Source: Deltaproteobacteria bacterium (GTDB taxonomy: Bacteria > Myxococcota > Myxococcia > Myxococcales > SZAS-1). From it: 64,000 nt of DNA. The notes below the pieces were generated by a model. That model was not told the origin of the DNA and made no database searches. It saw only the letters and a program-made list of their open reading frames with translations. This document shows positions 6,063-54,474 of this stretch, piece after piece. Positions within the stretch are counted from its first letter, which is position 1. Each line of letters starts with the position of its first letter. The translations under genes and the position numbers were made by a program. Location: NCBI GenBank assembly GCA_018266075.1, contig JAFEBB010000005.1, positions 1 to 64,000 of the forward strand, in the 5' to 3' direction.

Positions 6063-6785
6063 GTGCGCCACACCGTGCTGGCCACGCTCGCGGCGCTCCT
6101 CGTCACGCTCGTGGCGAAGCCGGCGCGCGCGGTCGACGTCGCCGTGTTCGACGCCGAGCCCATCGCCGCGGGCTGGGAGCAGGTGCGCGATCAGGACGGC
6201 GTGAAGGTCTACACGCGCAAGACCGAGGGCACCTCGCTGTACGCGCTCCGCTCCGACGGCGTGGTGGACGCGCCGCTCGACAAGGTCGCGCAGGTGTTCT
6301 TCGACCACGCGCGCACGCCCGAGTGGATCGATCGCATGGCCGACGAGCACGTGGTGCGCTTTCTCGGCGCCACGGAGTACGTCGAGTACAACCGCGTGAA
6401 CCTCCCGTTTCCCTTCAGCGACCGCGACTACGTCACGCGCGTGCACGTGCACGTTGACACCGCGCGCAATCGGCTGGAGATGACCTCGAGCTCCATCGAC
6501 GCGCCAGACCTTCCCAGCACGTGCGTGCGCGGCAGCCTGGAGACCGCGTATGTCCTGTCATCGGTCGACGGCGGCGCGCACACGCGCATCCAGGTGCTCT
6601 ACCTGATGGACCCCAACGGCGCGTTGCCACACTGGGTGGTGAACATCTTCCAGAAGTCGTGGCCGCTGGCGACGTTCCGCGGGATCCGCAAGCAGCTGCT
6701 CAAGCCCGACCTGCGCGAGCCGCCGCTGCAGCAGCTTCGCGACGTGGTCAGCCAGCTCCGCGCGCTGCAGCCTACAGGCCGATGA
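6063..6785 (+). CDS. Secreted START-domain protein
   Basis: A 240-residue protein with a cleavable signal peptide (Leu/Ala-rich core ending ARA) and a START/SRPBCC lipid-binding-type domain over most of the mature part. Typical features are GVKVYTRK near the N-terminus, the central DRDYVTRVHVHVD strand and the C-terminal helix after PLATFRGIRKQLL. START domains hold hydrophobic ligands; the ligand here is unknown. The start is GTG at 6063, preceded by GGGGGA. It follows the TPR/CNB gene by 34 bases and overlaps the convergent small gene at its 3' end by 14 bases. Confidence 0.88.
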   Translation: MRHTVLATLAALLVTLVAKPARAVDVAVFDAEPIAAGWEQVRDQDGVKVYTRKTEGTSLYALRSDGVVDAPLDKVAQVFFDHARTPEWIDRMADEHVVRFLGATEYVEYNRVNLPFPFSDRDYVTRVHVHVDTARNRLEMTSSSIDAPDLPSTCVRGSLETAYVLSSVDGGAHTRIQVLYLMDPNGALPHWVVNIFQKSWPLATFRGIRKQLLKPDLREPPLQQLRDVVSQLRALQPTGR

Positions 6786-6939
6786 GCGAGAGCAGCGCGT
6801 CCCAGATGCCGCTGTTGTCGCTGGTGGTCGTGGAGCTCGCGTTGTTGCTGCCGCGCGGATTCTGCATGTACACGTCGGCGCGGGCGGTGGAGCCGTAGAG
6901 CGTGACGGACACCAGCGCGGCGGCGAACAGCTTCTTCAT
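6772..6939 (-). CDS. Small secreted protein resembling the N-terminus of DD3-3 proteins
   Basis: A 55-residue product with a clear signal peptide (MKK, hydrophobic core, ARA cleavage) and a mature part of only about 34 residues beginning DVYMQNPRGSNNASS. DVYMxxPRGSN resembles the start of the DD3-3 family of secreted proteins, which are several hundred residues long; here the chain ends at once with IWDALLSLIGL. It could be a truncated remnant or an independent small secreted peptide. The ATG at 6939 has GGAGGG about 6 bases upstream. The 3' end overlaps the START-domain gene on the other strand. Confidence 0.7.
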   Translation of the reverse strand: MKKLFAAALVSVTLYGSTARADVYMQNPRGSNNASSTTTSDNSGIWDALLSLIGL

Positions 6940-48353: not shown

Positions 48354-49541
48354 CTAGATCGCCTCGACCAGCACCGCGATCCCCTGCCCACCGCCGATGC
48401 ACGCCGAGCCGATGCCGTACTTCTGGCCGCGGCGCTTGAGCTCATAGAGCAGGTGCGCGGTGATGCGCGAGCCCGAGGCCGCGAGCGGGTGGCCCACGGC
48501 CGTGGCGCCGCCGTCGACGTTGGTCGTCTCGCGGTCCAGCCCGAGCTCCTTCTCCACCGCCAGGTACTGCGGCACGAAGGCCTCGTTCACCTCGACCAGC
48601 GACACGTCCTTCATGGTCGCGCCAGTCTTCTCCAGCAGCTGACGAATCGCCGGCGCCGGGCCGATGCCCATCACCTTCGGGTCGCAGCCCACCACGCCCC
48701 AGCCGAGCAGCTTGCCGATGGGCGTGAGGCCCTTCTCCGCCCATGCGCGGTGCGCGAGCACGAACGCGCCGGCGCCGTCGCTGATGCCCGAGGCCGCGCC
48801 CGGGTGCACCACGCCGTCCTTCTTGAAGACCTTGGGCAGCTTCTTCAGGCCCTCGAGCGTCGTGTCCGGACGGTTGTGCTCGTCCTTGGCGAAGAACGTG
48901 GAGCCCTTCTTGCTCACCAGCTCCACGGGCGTGATCTCGTTCGCGAGGCGGCCGCCTTCCTGCGCGGCGGCGAAGCGCTTCTGGGTGAGGACCGAGTAGG
49001 CGTCGACCTCGTCCTGGCTGATCTTGTACTGCTCCGCGAGGTTCTCCGCGGTGATGCCCATGGGCAGCCCGGTGAAGCTGTCGGTGAGCGAGGTGGTGAG
49101 GCTGTCCTCGAGGCCGCCCTTGCCGAGCGGGATGCCCCAGCGCGCGCCGCGGATGATGTGCGGCGCCTGGCTCATGCTCTCCGTGCCACCCGCGAGGACC
49201 ACGTTGGCCTGGCCGGTCATGATCAGCGCGGCGGCCTGGGTGAGCGCCTCGAACCCCGAGCCGCAGAGCCGGTTCACGGTGACGGCCGGGACGTTCTGCG
49301 GTGCCCCGACCTTCAGGCCGATGTGGCGCGCCAGGTAGATCGCGTCGGGCGAGGTCTGCACCACGTTGCCGAAGACGACGTGCTCGATCTGATCGGGCGT
49401 CACCTTGGCCTGCTCCAGGGCGGCCTTCGCGGCCACCACGCCGAGGTCGGTGGCGCTCTTGTCCTTCAAGGTGCCGCCGAAGGTGCCGAACGCGGTGCGC
49501 TTGGCGGAGAGGATCACGAGGTCGTTCGAGACGGGCTTCAT
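48354..49541 (-). CDS. Acetyl-CoA C-acetyltransferase (thiolase)
   Basis: A 395-residue thiolase II-type enzyme condensing two acetyl-CoA to acetoacetyl-CoA, or the reverse. The nucleophile Cys is C93 in VNRLCGSGFEA; the NEAF motif, GHPLAASGSR with the catalytic His, and the final CIGGGQGIA with the acid-base Cys are all present. The ATG at 49541 has AGGAG 8 bases upstream; the frame extends further with no conserved sequence. It stands alone, divergent from the FG-GAP gene. Confidence 0.93.
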   Translation of the reverse strand: MKPVSNDLVILSAKRTAFGTFGGTLKDKSATDLGVVAAKAALEQAKVTPDQIEHVVFGNVVQTSPDAIYLARHIGLKVGAPQNVPAVTVNRLCGSGFEALTQAAALIMTGQANVVLAGGTESMSQAPHIIRGARWGIPLGKGGLEDSLTTSLTDSFTGLPMGITAENLAEQYKISQDEVDAYSVLTQKRFAAAQEGGRLANEITPVELVSKKGSTFFAKDEHNRPDTTLEGLKKLPKVFKKDGVVHPGAASGISDGAGAFVLAHRAWAEKGLTPIGKLLGWGVVGCDPKVMGIGPAPAIRQLLEKTGATMKDVSLVEVNEAFVPQYLAVEKELGLDRETTNVDGGATAVGHPLAASGSRITAHLLYELKRRGQKYGIGSACIGGGQGIAVLVEAI

Positions 49542-49605
49542 GGGTGGGCTCCTGGAGGGCGGCAAACATCACCTGCGAGCGGGTGAATCGCAAGCGCGGC
49601 GAGCC

Positions 49606-49711
49606 GCCAGTAACGCGGGACGGGTCGCCAGTAACAGCCGATGGGTCACCAGTAACGGGGGAAGGGGCGCCAGTAACAGCCGATGGGTCGCCAGTAACGG
49701 GGGGAACGGTC
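49606..49711. repeat. 21-bp tandem array between divergent genes
   Basis: Five units of 21 bp (one of 22) beginning GCCAGTAAC or ACCAGTAAC at 49606, 49627, 49648, 49669 and 49690. Units 2 and 4 are almost identical, hinting at a 42-bp higher-order unit. A second pair of 21-bp units (GGCAGCCCAGGCGGCGTT type) follows at about 49730-49772. The array lies in the 277-base gap between the thiolase and FG-GAP genes; a small frame through it (GTG at 49583 to a stop at 49822) overlaps the ATG at 49819. Confidence 0.85.
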
Positions 49712-49818
49712 GCCAGTCATGTGACCGGCAGCCCAGGCGGCGTTTCTGGCAGCCCAAGCGGCGTTGCCGGCGACCCTCGGAGAGGCCGGGAGGTGGGGTT
49801 TCGAGTAGTTTGCAGCCC

Positions 49819-51897
49819 ATGAACCGTCGCCTCGCCTGCCTGCTGCTCGTCCTGCCGCTGATCGCCTGCAACAAGAGCTCGACCGCCTCCGACGCCGGCG
49901 GCACCACCACCGGAGGTTCGGGCTCGACGGCCGGCGGCACGACCTCTGGAAGCTCGAGCACCGGCGGCAGCACCGGCTCGACCGGCGACGCAGGTCCGAT
50001 CGACGCCGGCCCAATCGATGCGGGCGACTTCGAGCAATGCGACGCACACGCGAGCGGCCCGAGCCACATGACCGACTCGACCATCGCCTGGAACCTGGGC
50101 GACGGCGGCTTGAACCTCACCGGCAACCGCATCATCGCCGCGGACCTCGACGGCGACGGCTATCCGGACCTGATCGTCCACGCCATCTACACGAACGCGC
50201 GCAGCCTGGTCCCGCTCTCGGACGGCGGCACCGGGCCGCTCTACGAGCACGTGCTCATGAACCGGCCGAATCCGAATGGCGGGCGCATGTTCGTGGACGC
50301 GACGGTGGAGAGCGGCGTGTTCCAGGTGCGCGCGGGGCAGGGCCTGCGCTCGGCGCAGCTCGCCGTGGCCGCCGACATCGACAACGACGGCGACCTCGAT
50401 CTCTTCAGCGGCACGTACACGGATCCCACCCATCCGGAGACCGACCCGGGCGACCGCAGCGAGGTGCTCATCAACGACGGCACCGGCCACTTCACGCTCG
50501 CGCCCATCTCCGACGCGCAGCCGCAGGCGAGTCAGCTCTGGCCGACGACGGGCGCCACGTTCACCGACGTCGACCACGACGGCAAGCTCGACCTGTTCGT
50601 GGGCTTTTGGTACCGCGCGTACGGCTCGTCGGAGTACGGCGTGCCCGCGCAGCTCTACCGGGGCAACGGCGACGGCACGTTCGCGTCGATCACCAACAGC
50701 GCGGGCGTGGCCACCAGCAGCGGCCTCTTCACGCTCGGCAACGACCAGAACCCCAAGCCGGCGTACGGCGTCACCGCGTGCGACGTGAACGGCGACGGCT
50801 CGCCCGAGCTGATGATCAGCGCCTACGGCCGCCAGTGGAACAACCTCTACTTGAACGACGGCACCGGCCACTTCGCCGAGGTCGGCCAGGACTCGGGCTA
50901 CGCCGGCGACGAGAACCTCGACTACACCGATAACCAGTTCTTCCTCTGCTACTGCACCGTGCATCCAACGGCCGCCGGCTGCGCGGACGCAGGCGCGCCG
51001 CTGATCCAGTGCCCCACGCCCGCCGACGCGGACTGGTCCGCGGGCAGCGACGATCAGCCCTGGCGCCTCAACGGCAACACCTTCTCCACGCTCTGCGCCG
51101 ACATCACCGGCGACGGCATCCCCGATCTCTACTCGGCCGAGATTCGCCACTGGCACATCGGCAACAGCTCGGATCCGTCGGAGCTGCTGGTGGGCGACGG
51201 CCACGCGCACTTCACGCGCCCGGGCAACGCCAACGACGGCCTGGTGATGCCGCATCCCACCAGCGACTGGAACGAGGGTGCGCTCATGGTCGCCGGGCCG
51301 GACCTGGACAACGACGGCCGGCGCGATCTGGTGGTGGCCGCGAGCGACTACCCCGATCAGTTCGGCTGGGTCTTCCACCAGCTCACGGACGGCGGCTTCG
51401 AAGAGGTCGGGCAGGACTGGGGCATGCACCACCCGTGCATGAGCGGGCTCGCGGTGGCCGACTTCGATCGCGACGGCGATCTCGACGTCATCGTGGGCTC
51501 GGGCACCGCGCGCGACTGCTCGGCGATTTGGCACACCAACGAGGTGCACATCTACACGAACGACGCGTCGACGCGCGCGCACGCGATCGAGATTCGCCTC
51601 CGCGGCGACGGCGTGACCGCGAACCGCATGGGTGCGGGCGCGAAGGTGACGGTGGAGGCGGGCGGGGTGACGCAGGTGCAGGAGCTGCAGACGGGCTTCG
51701 GTCACATGGCGATGGAGCACGACACGGTGTTGCACTTCGGGCTCGGCGAGTGCGCGGGCGCGGCGAACATCACGGTCACCTGGCCGGATGCGGTGCACAC
51801 CACGCAGACCTGGACGCGGGTGCTCGGCGATCAGCTCATCGAGCTGCAGATGGGCGACCCTTCGGTGCACCAGGTGGTCAGCTGGTATCGGGGCTAG
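49819..51897 (+). CDS. FG-GAP/VCBS lipoprotein with ASPIC/UnbV tail
   Basis: A 692-residue lipoprotein: lipobox LIAC, a Ser/Gly/Thr tether with two PIDAG steps, then a seven-bladed-propeller-type domain with repeated calcium-binding FG-GAP motifs (DLDGDGYPDLIV, DIDNDGDLDLFS, DVDHDGKLDLFV, DVNGDGSPELMI, DITGDGIPDLYS, DLDNDGRRDLVV, DFDRDGDLDVIV). The C-terminus has MGAGAKVTVEAGG and VTWPDAVHTTQTW, the ASPIC/UnbV pattern. A surface adhesin or binding protein is likely. The last codons and stop lie inside the left arm of an inverted-repeat element. Confidence 0.9.
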   Translation: MNRRLACLLLVLPLIACNKSSTASDAGGTTTGGSGSTAGGTTSGSSSTGGSTGSTGDAGPIDAGPIDAGDFEQCDAHASGPSHMTDSTIAWNLGDGGLNLTGNRIIAADLDGDGYPDLIVHAIYTNARSLVPLSDGGTGPLYEHVLMNRPNPNGGRMFVDATVESGVFQVRAGQGLRSAQLAVAADIDNDGDLDLFSGTYTDPTHPETDPGDRSEVLINDGTGHFTLAPISDAQPQASQLWPTTGATFTDVDHDGKLDLFVGFWYRAYGSSEYGVPAQLYRGNGDGTFASITNSAGVATSSGLFTLGNDQNPKPAYGVTACDVNGDGSPELMISAYGRQWNNLYLNDGTGHFAEVGQDSGYAGDENLDYTDNQFFLCYCTVHPTAAGCADAGAPLIQCPTPADADWSAGSDDQPWRLNGNTFSTLCADITGDGIPDLYSAEIRHWHIGNSSDPSELLVGDGHAHFTRPGNANDGLVMPHPTSDWNEGALMVAGPDLDNDGRRDLVVAASDYPDQFGWVFHQLTDGGFEEVGQDWGMHHPCMSGLAVADFDRDGDLDVIVGSGTARDCSAIWHTNEVHIYTNDASTRAHAIEIRLRGDGVTANRMGAGAKVTVEAGGVTQVQELQTGFGHMAMEHDTVLHFGLGECAGAANITVTWPDAVHTTQTWTRVLGDQLIELQMGDPSVHQVVSWYRG

Positions 51898-51987
51898 GAA
51901 GCCCCTCCCACAGAACCACTTTCTCAAAGTGGCGTGGACCGGGGGTGCATGAGGTTGTGGGAGGCGCTTCCCAGCGCCGACATCCCA
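51888..51987. repeat. Inverted-repeat element, copy 1
   Basis: The right part (51955-51987) is identical over 33 bp to the right part of copy 2. The left arm (51888-51912) matches copy 2 with about three or four differences, and it contains the TAG stop of the FG-GAP gene. Between the arms lies a separate perfect hairpin, CCACTTT/AAAGTGG (51916-51932), not shared with copy 2. The element sits in the gap between two convergent genes. Confidence 0.85.
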
Positions 51988-51988
51988 A

Positions 51989-52672
51989 CTACCTCAGTGA
52001 GAACTTGTCCCAGTGTCCCCAGGGCAGCCCGGCGACGATCTGGTACAGCATGATCGACCCGAGCAGCGCGAGGAACGCGGGCCGCAGGTGTCGCACGCGC
52101 ACCTCGCGCTTGCCGACGCCGGTGAACCAGGCCTTCGCGGCGTCCATGCGATCGGCCATGGTGCCCTTGGCTGCGCGCTCCCGGCCCGTCTCTTCCATCG
52201 CCGCGAGCTGACGCTTGTGCGCCACCCAGAGCTGGTCGGGCGTGGCGTTGGGAAGGCCCCCGGCGAGATAGTAGCCGTCGAGATCCGCGCCCGGGCGCTT
52301 GTGGTCCGCGCTCAGCACCGACGCGCCGCCGTCATAGGGCGTGAAGAAGTAGAGCCGCCGGGTGCGCTTGTCGACGAGGTACAGCGACGCGTACGTCTTC
52401 TCCGCGCGATGCAGGTAGTCGAACGAGTACTGCGCCTGCCCGAGGAGCGGCTTCTCGCTTCGCACGCCCAGCCGCTCGAAGCCGAGCGCCTCCAGCGCGG
52501 GCGCGGTGGTGCGAATGGGCTCGGGGTCGTCCTGCGGCGGCCACTCGTCGTGCGGCTCGGCGCGCTGGCGAACGGCGCCGGGAAAGAGGCAGGCGAGGGC
52601 GCCGGGCACGCTCGACCAGAGGATGCCAATGGCCAGCGCGGTGACGAGGAGGAGTCTCAAGCCGTACGGCAT
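51989..52672 (-). CDS. Hypothetical exported or membrane protein (227 aa)
   Basis: A 227-residue protein with an N-terminal hydrophobic segment (about 4-27), a soluble middle containing LGFERLGVRSEKPL and RAEKTYASLYLVDKRTRRLYFFTPYDGG, and a C-terminal hydrophobic segment (LRPAFLALLGSIMLYQIV). The middle looks like a periplasmic beta domain. No family recognised. Its stop is only 2 bases past the inverted-repeat element. Confidence 0.75.
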   Translation of the reverse strand: MPYGLRLLLVTALAIGILWSSVPGALACLFPGAVRQRAEPHDEWPPQDDPEPIRTTAPALEALGFERLGVRSEKPLLGQAQYSFDYLHRAEKTYASLYLVDKRTRRLYFFTPYDGGASVLSADHKRPGADLDGYYLAGGLPNATPDQLWVAHKRQLAAMEETGRERAAKGTMADRMDAAKAWFTGVGKREVRVRHLRPAFLALLGSIMLYQIVAGLPWGHWDKFSLR

Positions 52673-52727
52673 GCGCGCGTGAACTTAGCCCAGGCGGCTC
52701 CGAAGTTGTGCTTGGATTGCGCCCGGC

Positions 52728-53492
52728 ATGCGCATCGTGATCACCACCGGTCGGGAGCGCTCCCTGGCGCACGACCTCGAAGCCCAGGAGCTCTCGACCC
52801 GCTACGGGCTCGCCTTCACGCCGCGCGCGGACCGACGGCTCGAAGCGATCGCGGCGGAGTCGGGCGCGGAGGTGATCGGCGTGTTCGGCAGCGATGGCCT
52901 GGTGCTCCAGCGCGAGGGCGTGAAGCTGCGGTTCAGCGCGGGCATGGCCGAGCTGCGAATCAAGCGCGTCTTGAGCGGCGAGCACGAGCCGCTGGTGCAG
53001 CTCGGCGGGCTCAAGCCGGGCGACGCGGTGCTCGATTGCACCCTCGGGCTCGCGCGCGATGCGCTGGTGATGGCCGCGTCGGGCGCGCGCGTGGATGGCA
53101 TCGAGGGCCAGTCCATCGTGGCCGCGTTCTGCGAGGCCGGGCTGCGCGTGGTCGGCGGCGCGGCGGGCGAGGTGGCGTCGCGGGTCTCGGTGAAGCTGGG
53201 CAAGTACGCGAGCGTGCTCGAGCGGCTTCCGGCCAAGAGCTACGACGTCGTCTATCTCGATCCCATGTTCGCCGACGAAGTGAGCATGCCGCCCGAGTAC
53301 GAGCTCTTCCGCCAGCTCGCCGACGCGACCGAGCTCGATCGCAACGCCATCGCCGACGCACGCCGGGTGGCGCGGCGCGCCGTGATTGTGAAGGACGGCC
53401 CGCGCGGCCAGCTCTTGAAGACGCTCGGCGTGCCCTTGCAGGAGCTCACCTTCGGGACGCGGGTCAGGTACGCGCGGGTGGAGCCGGAGTAG
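52728..53492 (+). CDS. RsmJ-like 16S rRNA methyltransferase
   Basis: A 254-residue Rossmann-fold methyltransferase resembling RsmJ (16S rRNA m2G1516 in E. coli), which acts on the 30S subunit. A helical N-terminus with the recurrent GVFGSDGLVLQREG pattern precedes motif I, VLDCTLGLARDALVMAASGA, and the catalytic-region motif IV as YLDPMFAD. Identity to RsmJ is judged by eye, so another RNA methyltransferase is possible. The TAG stop forms the start of the left arm of inverted-repeat copy 2. Confidence 0.82.
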   Translation: MRIVITTGRERSLAHDLEAQELSTRYGLAFTPRADRRLEAIAAESGAEVIGVFGSDGLVLQREGVKLRFSAGMAELRIKRVLSGEHEPLVQLGGLKPGDAVLDCTLGLARDALVMAASGARVDGIEGQSIVAAFCEAGLRVVGGAAGEVASRVSVKLGKYASVLERLPAKSYDVVYLDPMFADEVSMPPEYELFRQLADATELDRNAIADARRVARRAVIVKDGPRGQLLKTLGVPLQELTFGTRVRYARVEPE

Positions 53493-53623
53493 TCGGCGCT
53501 GGGAAGCGCCTCCCACAGATCCAATTTGCCAGGCTGTTTGGCAGAAGAGTGTTTGGATCCAATCTGCCAGGCTGGTTGGGAGAAGGGTGTTTGTGGGAGG
53601 CGCTTCCCAGCGCCGACATCCCA
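53492..53623. repeat. Inverted-repeat element, copy 2
   Basis: Perfect 26-bp inverted arms: 53492-53517 (starts GTCGGCGCTGGGAAGC) and 53592-53617 (ends CGCTTCCCAGCGCCGAC). Between them lies a 74-base core made of two diverged 38-bp direct repeats (each starting GATCCAAT and containing TGCCAGGCTG). Located exactly between two convergent genes; the left arm overlaps a TAG stop codon as in copy 1. No open frame in it resembles a transposase, and target-site duplication is not clear. Confidence 0.88.
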
Positions 53624-53634
53624 GAAAGCACGAA

Positions 53635-53660
53635 CGCCCCGCTCGAATCCGAGCGAGGCG
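53635..53660 (-). terminator. Hairpin downstream of the phosphatase gene
   Basis: An 11-bp stem with one mismatch (CGCCCCGCTCG/CGAGCGAGGCG) and a 4-base loop, 22 bases past the stop of the minus-strand gene at 53683. The T-run is weak (CGTTCGTGCTTTCT). Confidence 0.55.
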
Positions 53661-53682
53661 TCGAGGTGCCGCAGCGCTTTCG

Positions 53683-54381
53683 CTACTGCTTGACCGGGTA
53701 GCCCGCGATCTTGCCCGCGGCCAGGTCGTTGCCGAACTGCTGCAGGAACTGGAGCTGGTCGGGCAGCTTCATGCCCATCTGCTTGGCCTCGGCGATGGCG
53801 GCCTGCGGCGTCCAGCCATCGACGGCCATGCGGTAGGCCGCGCTCATCACGCCCGTGCGGCCCTGGCCCGCCTCGCAGTGCACGTACGCGGGCTGGTTGG
53901 CCGGGTTGGTTGCGAAGTCGAGGAACTGCTTCACCTGGGCCTCGCTCGGCGCGGAGTTGTCGAGGATGGGCAGGTGCAGCGAGTTCATGCCCAGCGCCTT
54001 CGCGCGCGGGGTGTCGTCGTCGTTCTCCATGCAGAGGTTGATGACGCTCTTGTAGCCCTGCGTGTGGAGCTGCGCGATGCCCTCGTCGCTGAGGCGCGAG
54101 CCGCGGGTGAGGTTGTCGTCGAGCTTCGACTGGTAGGTGTTCACCGGGTACTTGGCGCCGAGCAGCTCGGCCACGCCCACCGCCTCCGCGCCGCCGTCGG
54201 CGAAGCCGTCGCCCACGTCCTTCAAGCCGTTCACGGCCGCCGAGCCCGCCTGGCTCTCCTTGCCGGTGACGAGATCCTTCGCCGCGGTGCCAATGGCGTC
54301 GCCCGCCTGCTTGAAGTCGTTGCCGACCGTCTTGCCAAGCGTCTCCAAGCCCTTGCCGATGTTCTTGAAGCTGATGCCCAT
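53683..54381 (-). CDS. Dual-specificity/tyrosine phosphatase
   Basis: A 232-residue protein. The N-terminal 70 residues are helical and low in motifs (GKGLETLGKTVGNDFKQAGDAIG). The remainder is a cysteine-based protein phosphatase of the DSP type with the P-loop HCEAGQGRTGV (CX5R, about 161-171), an upstream general-acid-region Asp in LPILDN, and a helix after MAVDGWTPQAAI. Similar proteins remove phosphate from Tyr or phosphoinositides; target unknown. The ATG at 54381 has GGAGGTG 5 bases upstream. Confidence 0.88.
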   Translation of the reverse strand: MGISFKNIGKGLETLGKTVGNDFKQAGDAIGTAAKDLVTGKESQAGSAAVNGLKDVGDGFADGGAEAVGVAELLGAKYPVNTYQSKLDDNLTRGSRLSDEGIAQLHTQGYKSVINLCMENDDDTPRAKALGMNSLHLPILDNSAPSEAQVKQFLDFATNPANQPAYVHCEAGQGRTGVMSAAYRMAVDGWTPQAAIAEAKQMGMKLPDQLQFLQQFGNDLAAGKIAGYPVKQ

Positions 54382-54474
54382 GTGGCACCTCCCGTGTAGG
54401 CCATTATCACCCAACTCCCGGCGAAGTTGCGTGCGGGGCGACCTACAACGGCTTTACGGCTAGGCTTTTCCGAC

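Follow-up and report, generated by a model that had tools for sequence, protein, structure and literature searches.

Two inverted-repeat elements between convergent genes of a Myxococcota genome belong to a lineage-private REPIN family with a RAYT gene

REPs tagged with GTAG have been described as forming tail-inward dimers that lie beside the 3' ends of genes, between unidirectional or convergent genes, with some REPs supplying TAG stops and with RAYT genes being REP-flanked (Di Nocera et al. 2013, PMC3733652). REPINs are defined in PMC3116915, where single REPs are regarded as remnants. In TnpA-REP, residues W94, Q95 and R104 contact the GTAG and N119 is essential (PMC6006769). The GTAG is described as a guide, cleavage at CA or CC is reported for GTGG, and for one TnpA-REP a change of guide shifts the cleaved dinucleotide in vitro (PMC8266576). 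E. coli REPs lying no more than 15 nt from a stop codon are reported to stall ribosomes, as relayed by PMC12306157 from its reference 17. A literature search for REPs in myxobacteria found none, and words starting with 'Myxoco' are absent from the text of PMC3733652.

The window, by which we mean the whole stretch of 64,000 nucleotides analysed here, contains two copies of an inverted-repeat element, each in a gap between convergent genes (stops at 51897 and 51989 for copy 1, and at 53492 and 53683 for copy 2), as proposed in an earlier note based on the sequence (Table 1). The arms of copy 2 form a perfect 26-bp inverted repeat (53492-53517 and 53592-53617), 26 bp being the arm length given in that note, and the arms of copy 1 can be refined to 25 nt (51888-51912 and 51956-51980) with 88% complementarity. 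The 33 identical bases said to be common to the two right parts are present (51955-51987 and 53591-53623), the last six of them (ATCCCA) lying outside the conserved unit and agreeing at chance level. The cores differ as described, one containing a 17-nt hairpin, CCACTTTCTCAAAGTGG, and the other a 38-nt direct repeat (53518-53555 and 53556-53593) with 89% identity. The upstream TAG is inside the left arm of copy 1 and overlaps the left arm of copy 2 by one base, also in agreement with what had been noticed. Chance does not account for the window repeats, because the 25-mer of the arm has no match in any shuffle of the window and the whole doublets fold well beyond their shuffles (z -4.6 for copy 1 and -11.1 for copy 2), each as one hairpin. 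Folding of a single REP alone is not clearly beyond shuffles (z -1.5).

Table 1. Features at the two window copies (positions are those of the window).
Feature	Coordinates	Strand	Remarks
Gene upstream of copy 1	49450..51897	+	FG-GAP repeats and ASPIC/UnbV domain; start approximate
Left REP, copy 1	51887..51911	-	GTGGGAGGGGCTTCCTAGCCCCGAT on the - strand; compensatory stem change; upstream TAG at 51895-51897
Spacer (core), copy 1	51912..51956		Contains the 17-nt hairpin, 51916-51932
Right REP, copy 1	51957..51981	+	Exact consensus
Convergent gene, right of copy 1	51989..52672	-	227 aa; no Pfam match
Gene upstream of copy 2	52728..53492	+	Putative SAM-dependent methyltransferase (PF04445)
Left REP, copy 2	53492..53516	-	Exact consensus; begins at the final G of the upstream gene's TAG
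Spacer (core), copy 2	53517..53592		Contains the 38-nt direct repeat
Right REP, copy 2	53593..53617	+	Exact consensus
Terminator-like hairpin, T-rich tail	53633..53662	-	In the gap from copy 2 to the phosphatase stop; outside the REPIN
Convergent gene, right of copy 2	53683..54414	-	DSP/PTP-type phosphatase; start approximate

One 25-nt hairpin, GTGGGAGGCGCTTCCCAGCGCCGAC, makes up the arms of both copies, and it has the layout of a REP, with a 6-bp stem and a 4-nt loop preceded by a GTGG tail and GA and followed by GA(C/T), the consensus of the main subtype being GTGG-GA-GGCGCT-TCCC-AGCGCC-GAC. Beyond being a terminal repeat, the 26-bp arm is a REP that folds into a hairpin of its own. Across 30 distinct units 95.6% of the stem cells are paired and eight are changed on both sides, compared to 2.0 in shuffles, which indicates compensatory change; the third stem pair is switched from C-G to G-C in six distinct units, including the left REP of copy 1. 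The tetranucleotide at the end of the stem-loop is an unpaired GTRG, with GTGG in the main subtype and GTAG in the subtype located at the RAYT. The outer boundary is sharp, and the conserved unit stops directly at GA(C/T); beyond it three pairs of outer flanks share at least five bases where 2.6 are expected, which is the level of random intergenic sequence, and no target or cleavage dinucleotide common to the sites outside the REP is visible in this comparison. On the inner side a weak consensus extends over some 15 nt, and 51/55 units have T at -1; the spacers are weakly alike (mean local score 7.4, compared to a null of 6.0). No Rfam family reaches its gathering score for the element, and the three weak matches are of the kind given by chance. 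The units share the GTRG tail, 6-bp stem and 3-4 nt loop with the GTAG-REPs and TT dimers described in PMC3733652.

In the draft genome (7,840,890 bases or 7.84 Mb in 166 contigs, 96.6% complete), a search allowing ≤3 mismatches finds GTGGGAGGCGCTTCCCAGCGCCGAC 53 times, with 32 exact copies, and its reversed control not at all. A covariance model built on 67 aligned units, which make up most of its matches, finds at least 83 matches at E ≤ 5 and at least 68 at E ≤ 0.005, with 150 of 17,415 first-look candidates scored; the matches with E > 0.05 on contigs C2, C30 and C128 appear to be fortuitous similarities within coding sequence. There are also eight matches to a 24-nt form with a 3-nt loop (five GTAG, two GTTG and one GTGG), and intermediates between the GTAG/3-nt-loop and GTGG/4-nt-loop subtypes are located at C10:18926 and C27:54895. 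Within 29 stretches totalling 324 kb (28 around ≤3-mismatch matches and one around a Y1 transposase other than the RAYT) there are 58 units at ≤6 mismatches in 38 clusters, comprising 17 doublets ('-+'), one four-unit cluster ('--++') and 20 singles. All of the 17 plain doublets have the '-+' orientation with GTGG ends inward, and none has any other. The inverted REP doublets form one hairpin and the family is dispersed and mostly extragenic (37/38 clusters are in gaps and one is inside a weak gene call), both being properties by which REPINs are recognized; the REPIN here consists of two inverted REP hairpins, GTGG ends inward, around a fast-evolving spacer. Of the 38 clusters, 14 have a neighbour within 5 kb where 1.7 are expected, a number reached in none of 5000 simulations with positions uniform along one line. 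Segmental duplication is not the cause of the dispersal, since BLAST links between the flanks of different loci are short stretches of 26-80 nt, the longer matches coming from overlapping segments around a single locus.

The REPINs of Pseudomonas fluorescens SBW25 (PMC3116915) are similar in being intergenic inverted REP doublets with a variable folding spacer, in having a matching RAYT gene, and in the presence of lone REPs as likely remnants. The two differ in sequence and in family size, with about 70 units here and more than 1000 in SBW25. In SBW25 doublets are better conserved than singles, a trend that is not part of the definition; here singles are not more diverged (mean mismatches of 0.85 for 20 units, compared to 1.13 for the 38 units in doublets and the four-unit cluster), in a sample biased toward units with ≤3 mismatches.

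There are two Y1 transposase genes in the genome. The product of the gene on contig C10 (C10:16758-17405) matches NF047646 (REP-associated tyrosine transposase) with 120.4 bits (cut-off 80), and its score to the IS200 model (35 bits) is under the cut-off of 55. It has low overall similarity to the solved E. coli TnpA-REP (chain 4er8_A; E 6.8e-9, 39 bits), but the two have the HUH motif, the Tyr signature and the GTAG-contacting W, Q and R in common; as read from the alignment, W94, Q95, R104, N119 and Y115 of 4er8, the last of which we take to be the catalytic tyrosine, are identical in the C10 RAYT. The gene is enclosed by a 37-nt inverted pair (36 positions matching) containing GTAGGAGGCGTTTCC(T)AACGCCGAC, and has inverted GTAG-type REPs on both sides at C10:16771-16793 and C10:17291-17313; the downstream REP (6771-6794 of stretch L039) is within the end of the RAYT open frame (6759-7406 of L039). 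This is the arrangement of the REPtrons in PMC3733652, which are REP-flanked with one REP overlapping the 3' end of the gene. The REPs beside the RAYT are 24 nt long with a 3-nt loop and GTAG, whereas the window subtype is 25 nt long with a 4-nt loop and GTGG, and two window-type REPINs lie 1.4-2.3 kb from the RAYT. The likeness of the subtypes and the presence of intermediates suggest that this RAYT is also linked to the window subtype, and with the assembly in this state a second, unassembled RAYT is possible. That one RAYT serves both subtypes, and that a natural change of guide went with the spread of a subtype, aided by local hopping, is a tentative idea that we consider rather unlikely.

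The second Y1 transposase (C28:21760-22122) matches PF01797 with 112.5 bits, which is better than the match of the RAYT to that model, and from its translation reads as an IS200/IS605 TnpA. No REP-like unit was found in the surrounding 10 kb (stretch L049). A search with PF02371 (IS110 family) gave one match, at C10:74152, with no link to a collapsed repeat.

The earlier note had pointed to relatives as a place to look for the arm, and at ≤3 mismatches the window REP family is present in none of the 59 other genomes of the order, among which the same bacterial family is not represented; in the relatives searched, from which that family is likewise absent, no empty insertion site was found. A scan of a genome collection, possibly without the window's own genome, yielded one stray match in a Treponema MAG. 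The RAYT model has matches at E ≤ 0.001 in 50/117 genomes of the order and above its cut-off in only four, own genome included. The flanks of 30 RAYT loci were compared (L084 being that of this genome), five of which were too short for examination. At L085 the RAYT is bracketed by a GTAG-containing 29-nt inverted pair without mismatch, and L087 has a shorter inverted pair; L088, L089, L092 and L093 have GGGGACAC-type repeats at the RAYT flanks, L090 has a 26-nt pair at its RAYT in which the GTRG hairpin is not visible, and L113 has an imperfect inverted pair. The remaining loci show short flank matches only (≤17 nt). From this comparison and the absence of the window family from the 59 genomes, we conclude that the relatives have RAYTs with repeats of other kinds. 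The family is a new, lineage-private REPIN family with a RAYT, as judged from the features described in PMC3733652 for its 24 families, and every one of its main features has precedent.

For analysis of placement, genes were called by a custom script with approximate starts, which recovered the stops of the four window genes. Eighteen clusters are between tandem genes, 14 between convergent genes and five between divergent genes, and one is inside the weak gene call. The convergent placement seen at the two window copies is enriched among the placed clusters (14/37, compared to 41/275 control gaps without REPs in the same fetched stretches; p = 0.002), but the excess comes from the doublets (10/18; p = 0.0002) and the singles (4/19) are no different from the control (p = 0.51), so that it is a tendency and not a rule. 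Closeness to a stop codon is the stronger rule, with 25 of the 37 placed clusters having a facing stop codon no more than 12 bp away, compared to 8.2% of random intergenic positions; five of the 37 face no gene end. The genome scan thus revealed neither a family of only two copies nor a random placement relative to gene ends. In four units the loop is changed from TCCC to TCCT, creating CTAG on the other strand, and in all four this is an in-frame stop for the upstream gene. In another four cases the TAG and the REP overlap by one base, the last of the stop and the first of the REP. TAG stops are present at 21/38 gene ends near REPs and at 107/278 others (p = 0.054), so that an excess of TAG at REP-adjacent gene ends is suggestive. 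The REPs of PMC3733652 share these habits, being tail-inward dimers that are mostly beside gene 3' ends and that supply TAG stops.

The position behind stops fits the purging of intragenic insertions, and it fits an effect on mRNA ends as well. In the latter case near-stop REPs would be host-selected RNA elements that act on the upstream mRNA, by making its 3' end more stable or by holding up the ribosome at termination, with selection setting their position. This reading can draw on the 25/37 clusters with a facing stop no more than 12 bp away, the ribosome stalling reported for E. coli REPs that are at most 15 nt from a stop codon (PMC12306157, its reference 17), and the in-frame TAG given by the four loop variants. 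However, purging would lead to the same placement, the family is confined to a single lineage, and the four genes next to the window copies belong to unrelated types; we regard such an element as possible but doubtful. The earlier note had also offered a bidirectional terminator cassette, in which the hairpin ends both convergent transcripts and is kept or spread for that purpose. The enrichment of doublets in convergent gaps (10/18 compared to 41/275) and the strong folds (z -4.6 and -11.1) are in keeping with this, but only 1/55 units is followed by a T-tract, leaving an intrinsic terminator unsupported as the main reading, and a terminator scan of the window finds no terminator-like site in the REPs themselves. 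In addition, 5/37 clusters are without a facing stop codon and the phosphatase gene to the right of copy 2 has a terminator-like hairpin of its own. Termination by an intrinsic mechanism is unlikely, and the cassette as a whole has little probability; of the two interpretations in the earlier note, only that of a mobile, non-autonomous REP-like unit at gene ends is supported, with 53 copies, inward doublets, an excess near stop codons and a RAYT in a REP pair. The inverted ends and dispersed copies would also suit a MITE of an ordinary DDE transposon with terminal inverted repeats, but this is extremely improbable given that each arm forms a hairpin in its own right, with compensatory changes in the stem, the outer flanks share nothing above chance, solitary half-elements are common (20/38 clusters) and the RAYT sits in a REP pair.

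The best overall explanation, which we hold with high confidence, is that both copies are REPINs, probably moved by a RAYT and kept mainly behind stop codons. The family, its geometry, the conserved stem, the RAYT within a pair of variant REPs, and the enrichment near stop codons and in convergent gaps are observed in this genome, and kinship and geometry suggest that the genome's RAYT mobilizes the copies. The RAYT would bind the GTRG-hairpin unit while the DNA is single-stranded, as it is at a replication fork, for example, and cleave beside the unit, with the REPIN being rejoined elsewhere, often nearby. Insertions would last mainly where nothing is broken, that is, behind stop codons, and some of those that persist may later provide the stop codon of the gene; REPs standing alone probably derive from former doublets. 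Putative effects on the host, such as protection of mRNA 3' ends or ribosome stalling close to the stop, would be secondary.

With about 70 units and one RAYT, this REPIN population is compact enough for every copy to be placed, and none of the genomes searched is a close relative of its host lineage. Apart from two questions it is an ordinary REPIN population. It offers natural tests of whether one RAYT can switch its guide sequence and found a new subtype, and of whether REPs come to lie behind stop codons by the purging of harmful insertions or by their action on mRNA.

In the draft genome itself, REPs (short hairpins with a GTGG or GTAG tail) of type 2 are interrupted by contig ends. One common sequence (CAACTGTAATCAACGCG...) abuts the REP tail GTGGTGGATGTAGGAG at four contig ends, and a second (...CACGCCCTATAAGCA) abuts a REP half at contig C112 and within C18; in C91 a REP half lies at an equal distance from the contig end. 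From sequence, these junctions look like those of a multicopy insertion element that would target REPs at GTAGG-AG, the two common sequences being its putative ends, each seen separately, and the body of this candidate element looks to have been collapsed by the assembly. The seven sites fall in loci L065, L069, L120, L121, L123, L124 and L043.

Coordinates of broken REPs (contigs, C) and mixed-subtype REP clusters (fetched loci, L)
Feature	Position
Contig end with broken REP	C1:1-50
Contig end with broken REP	C8:1-50
Contig end with broken REP	C85:30365-30447
Contig end with broken REP	C121:1-96
Further REP-half site	C112:1-63
Further REP-half site	C91:25887-25951
Further REP-half site	C18:43843
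Mixed-subtype cluster	L043:5013-5209
Mixed-subtype cluster	L053:4867-5017
Mixed-subtype cluster	L039:8783-8950

The three mixed clusters contain two to four REPs each, some of the units being partial, and seem to reflect insertions that are nested or that recurred at one place. Exact and inexact REPs were tallied by eye in 18 REPINs, comprising 17 plain doublets and, from the L043 cluster, its inner pair; the right-hand REP is that on the contig + strand. Although contig orientation is expected to be arbitrary, exactness is skewed to the right-hand REP, which alone is exact in 8/18 REPINs (the opposite in 0/18; both exact in seven, neither in three); this skew is possibly chance. Beside the second REPIN of the window, the phosphatase gene has a terminator-like hairpin and T-rich tail (window 53633-53662), distinct from the REPIN.

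At the RAYT loci of relatives (L088, L089, L092 and L093), GGGGACAC-type repeats flank RAYT-like genes, an arrangement reminiscent of the TIR-flanked transposases, with motif GGGGWSAS, described in PMC3733652.
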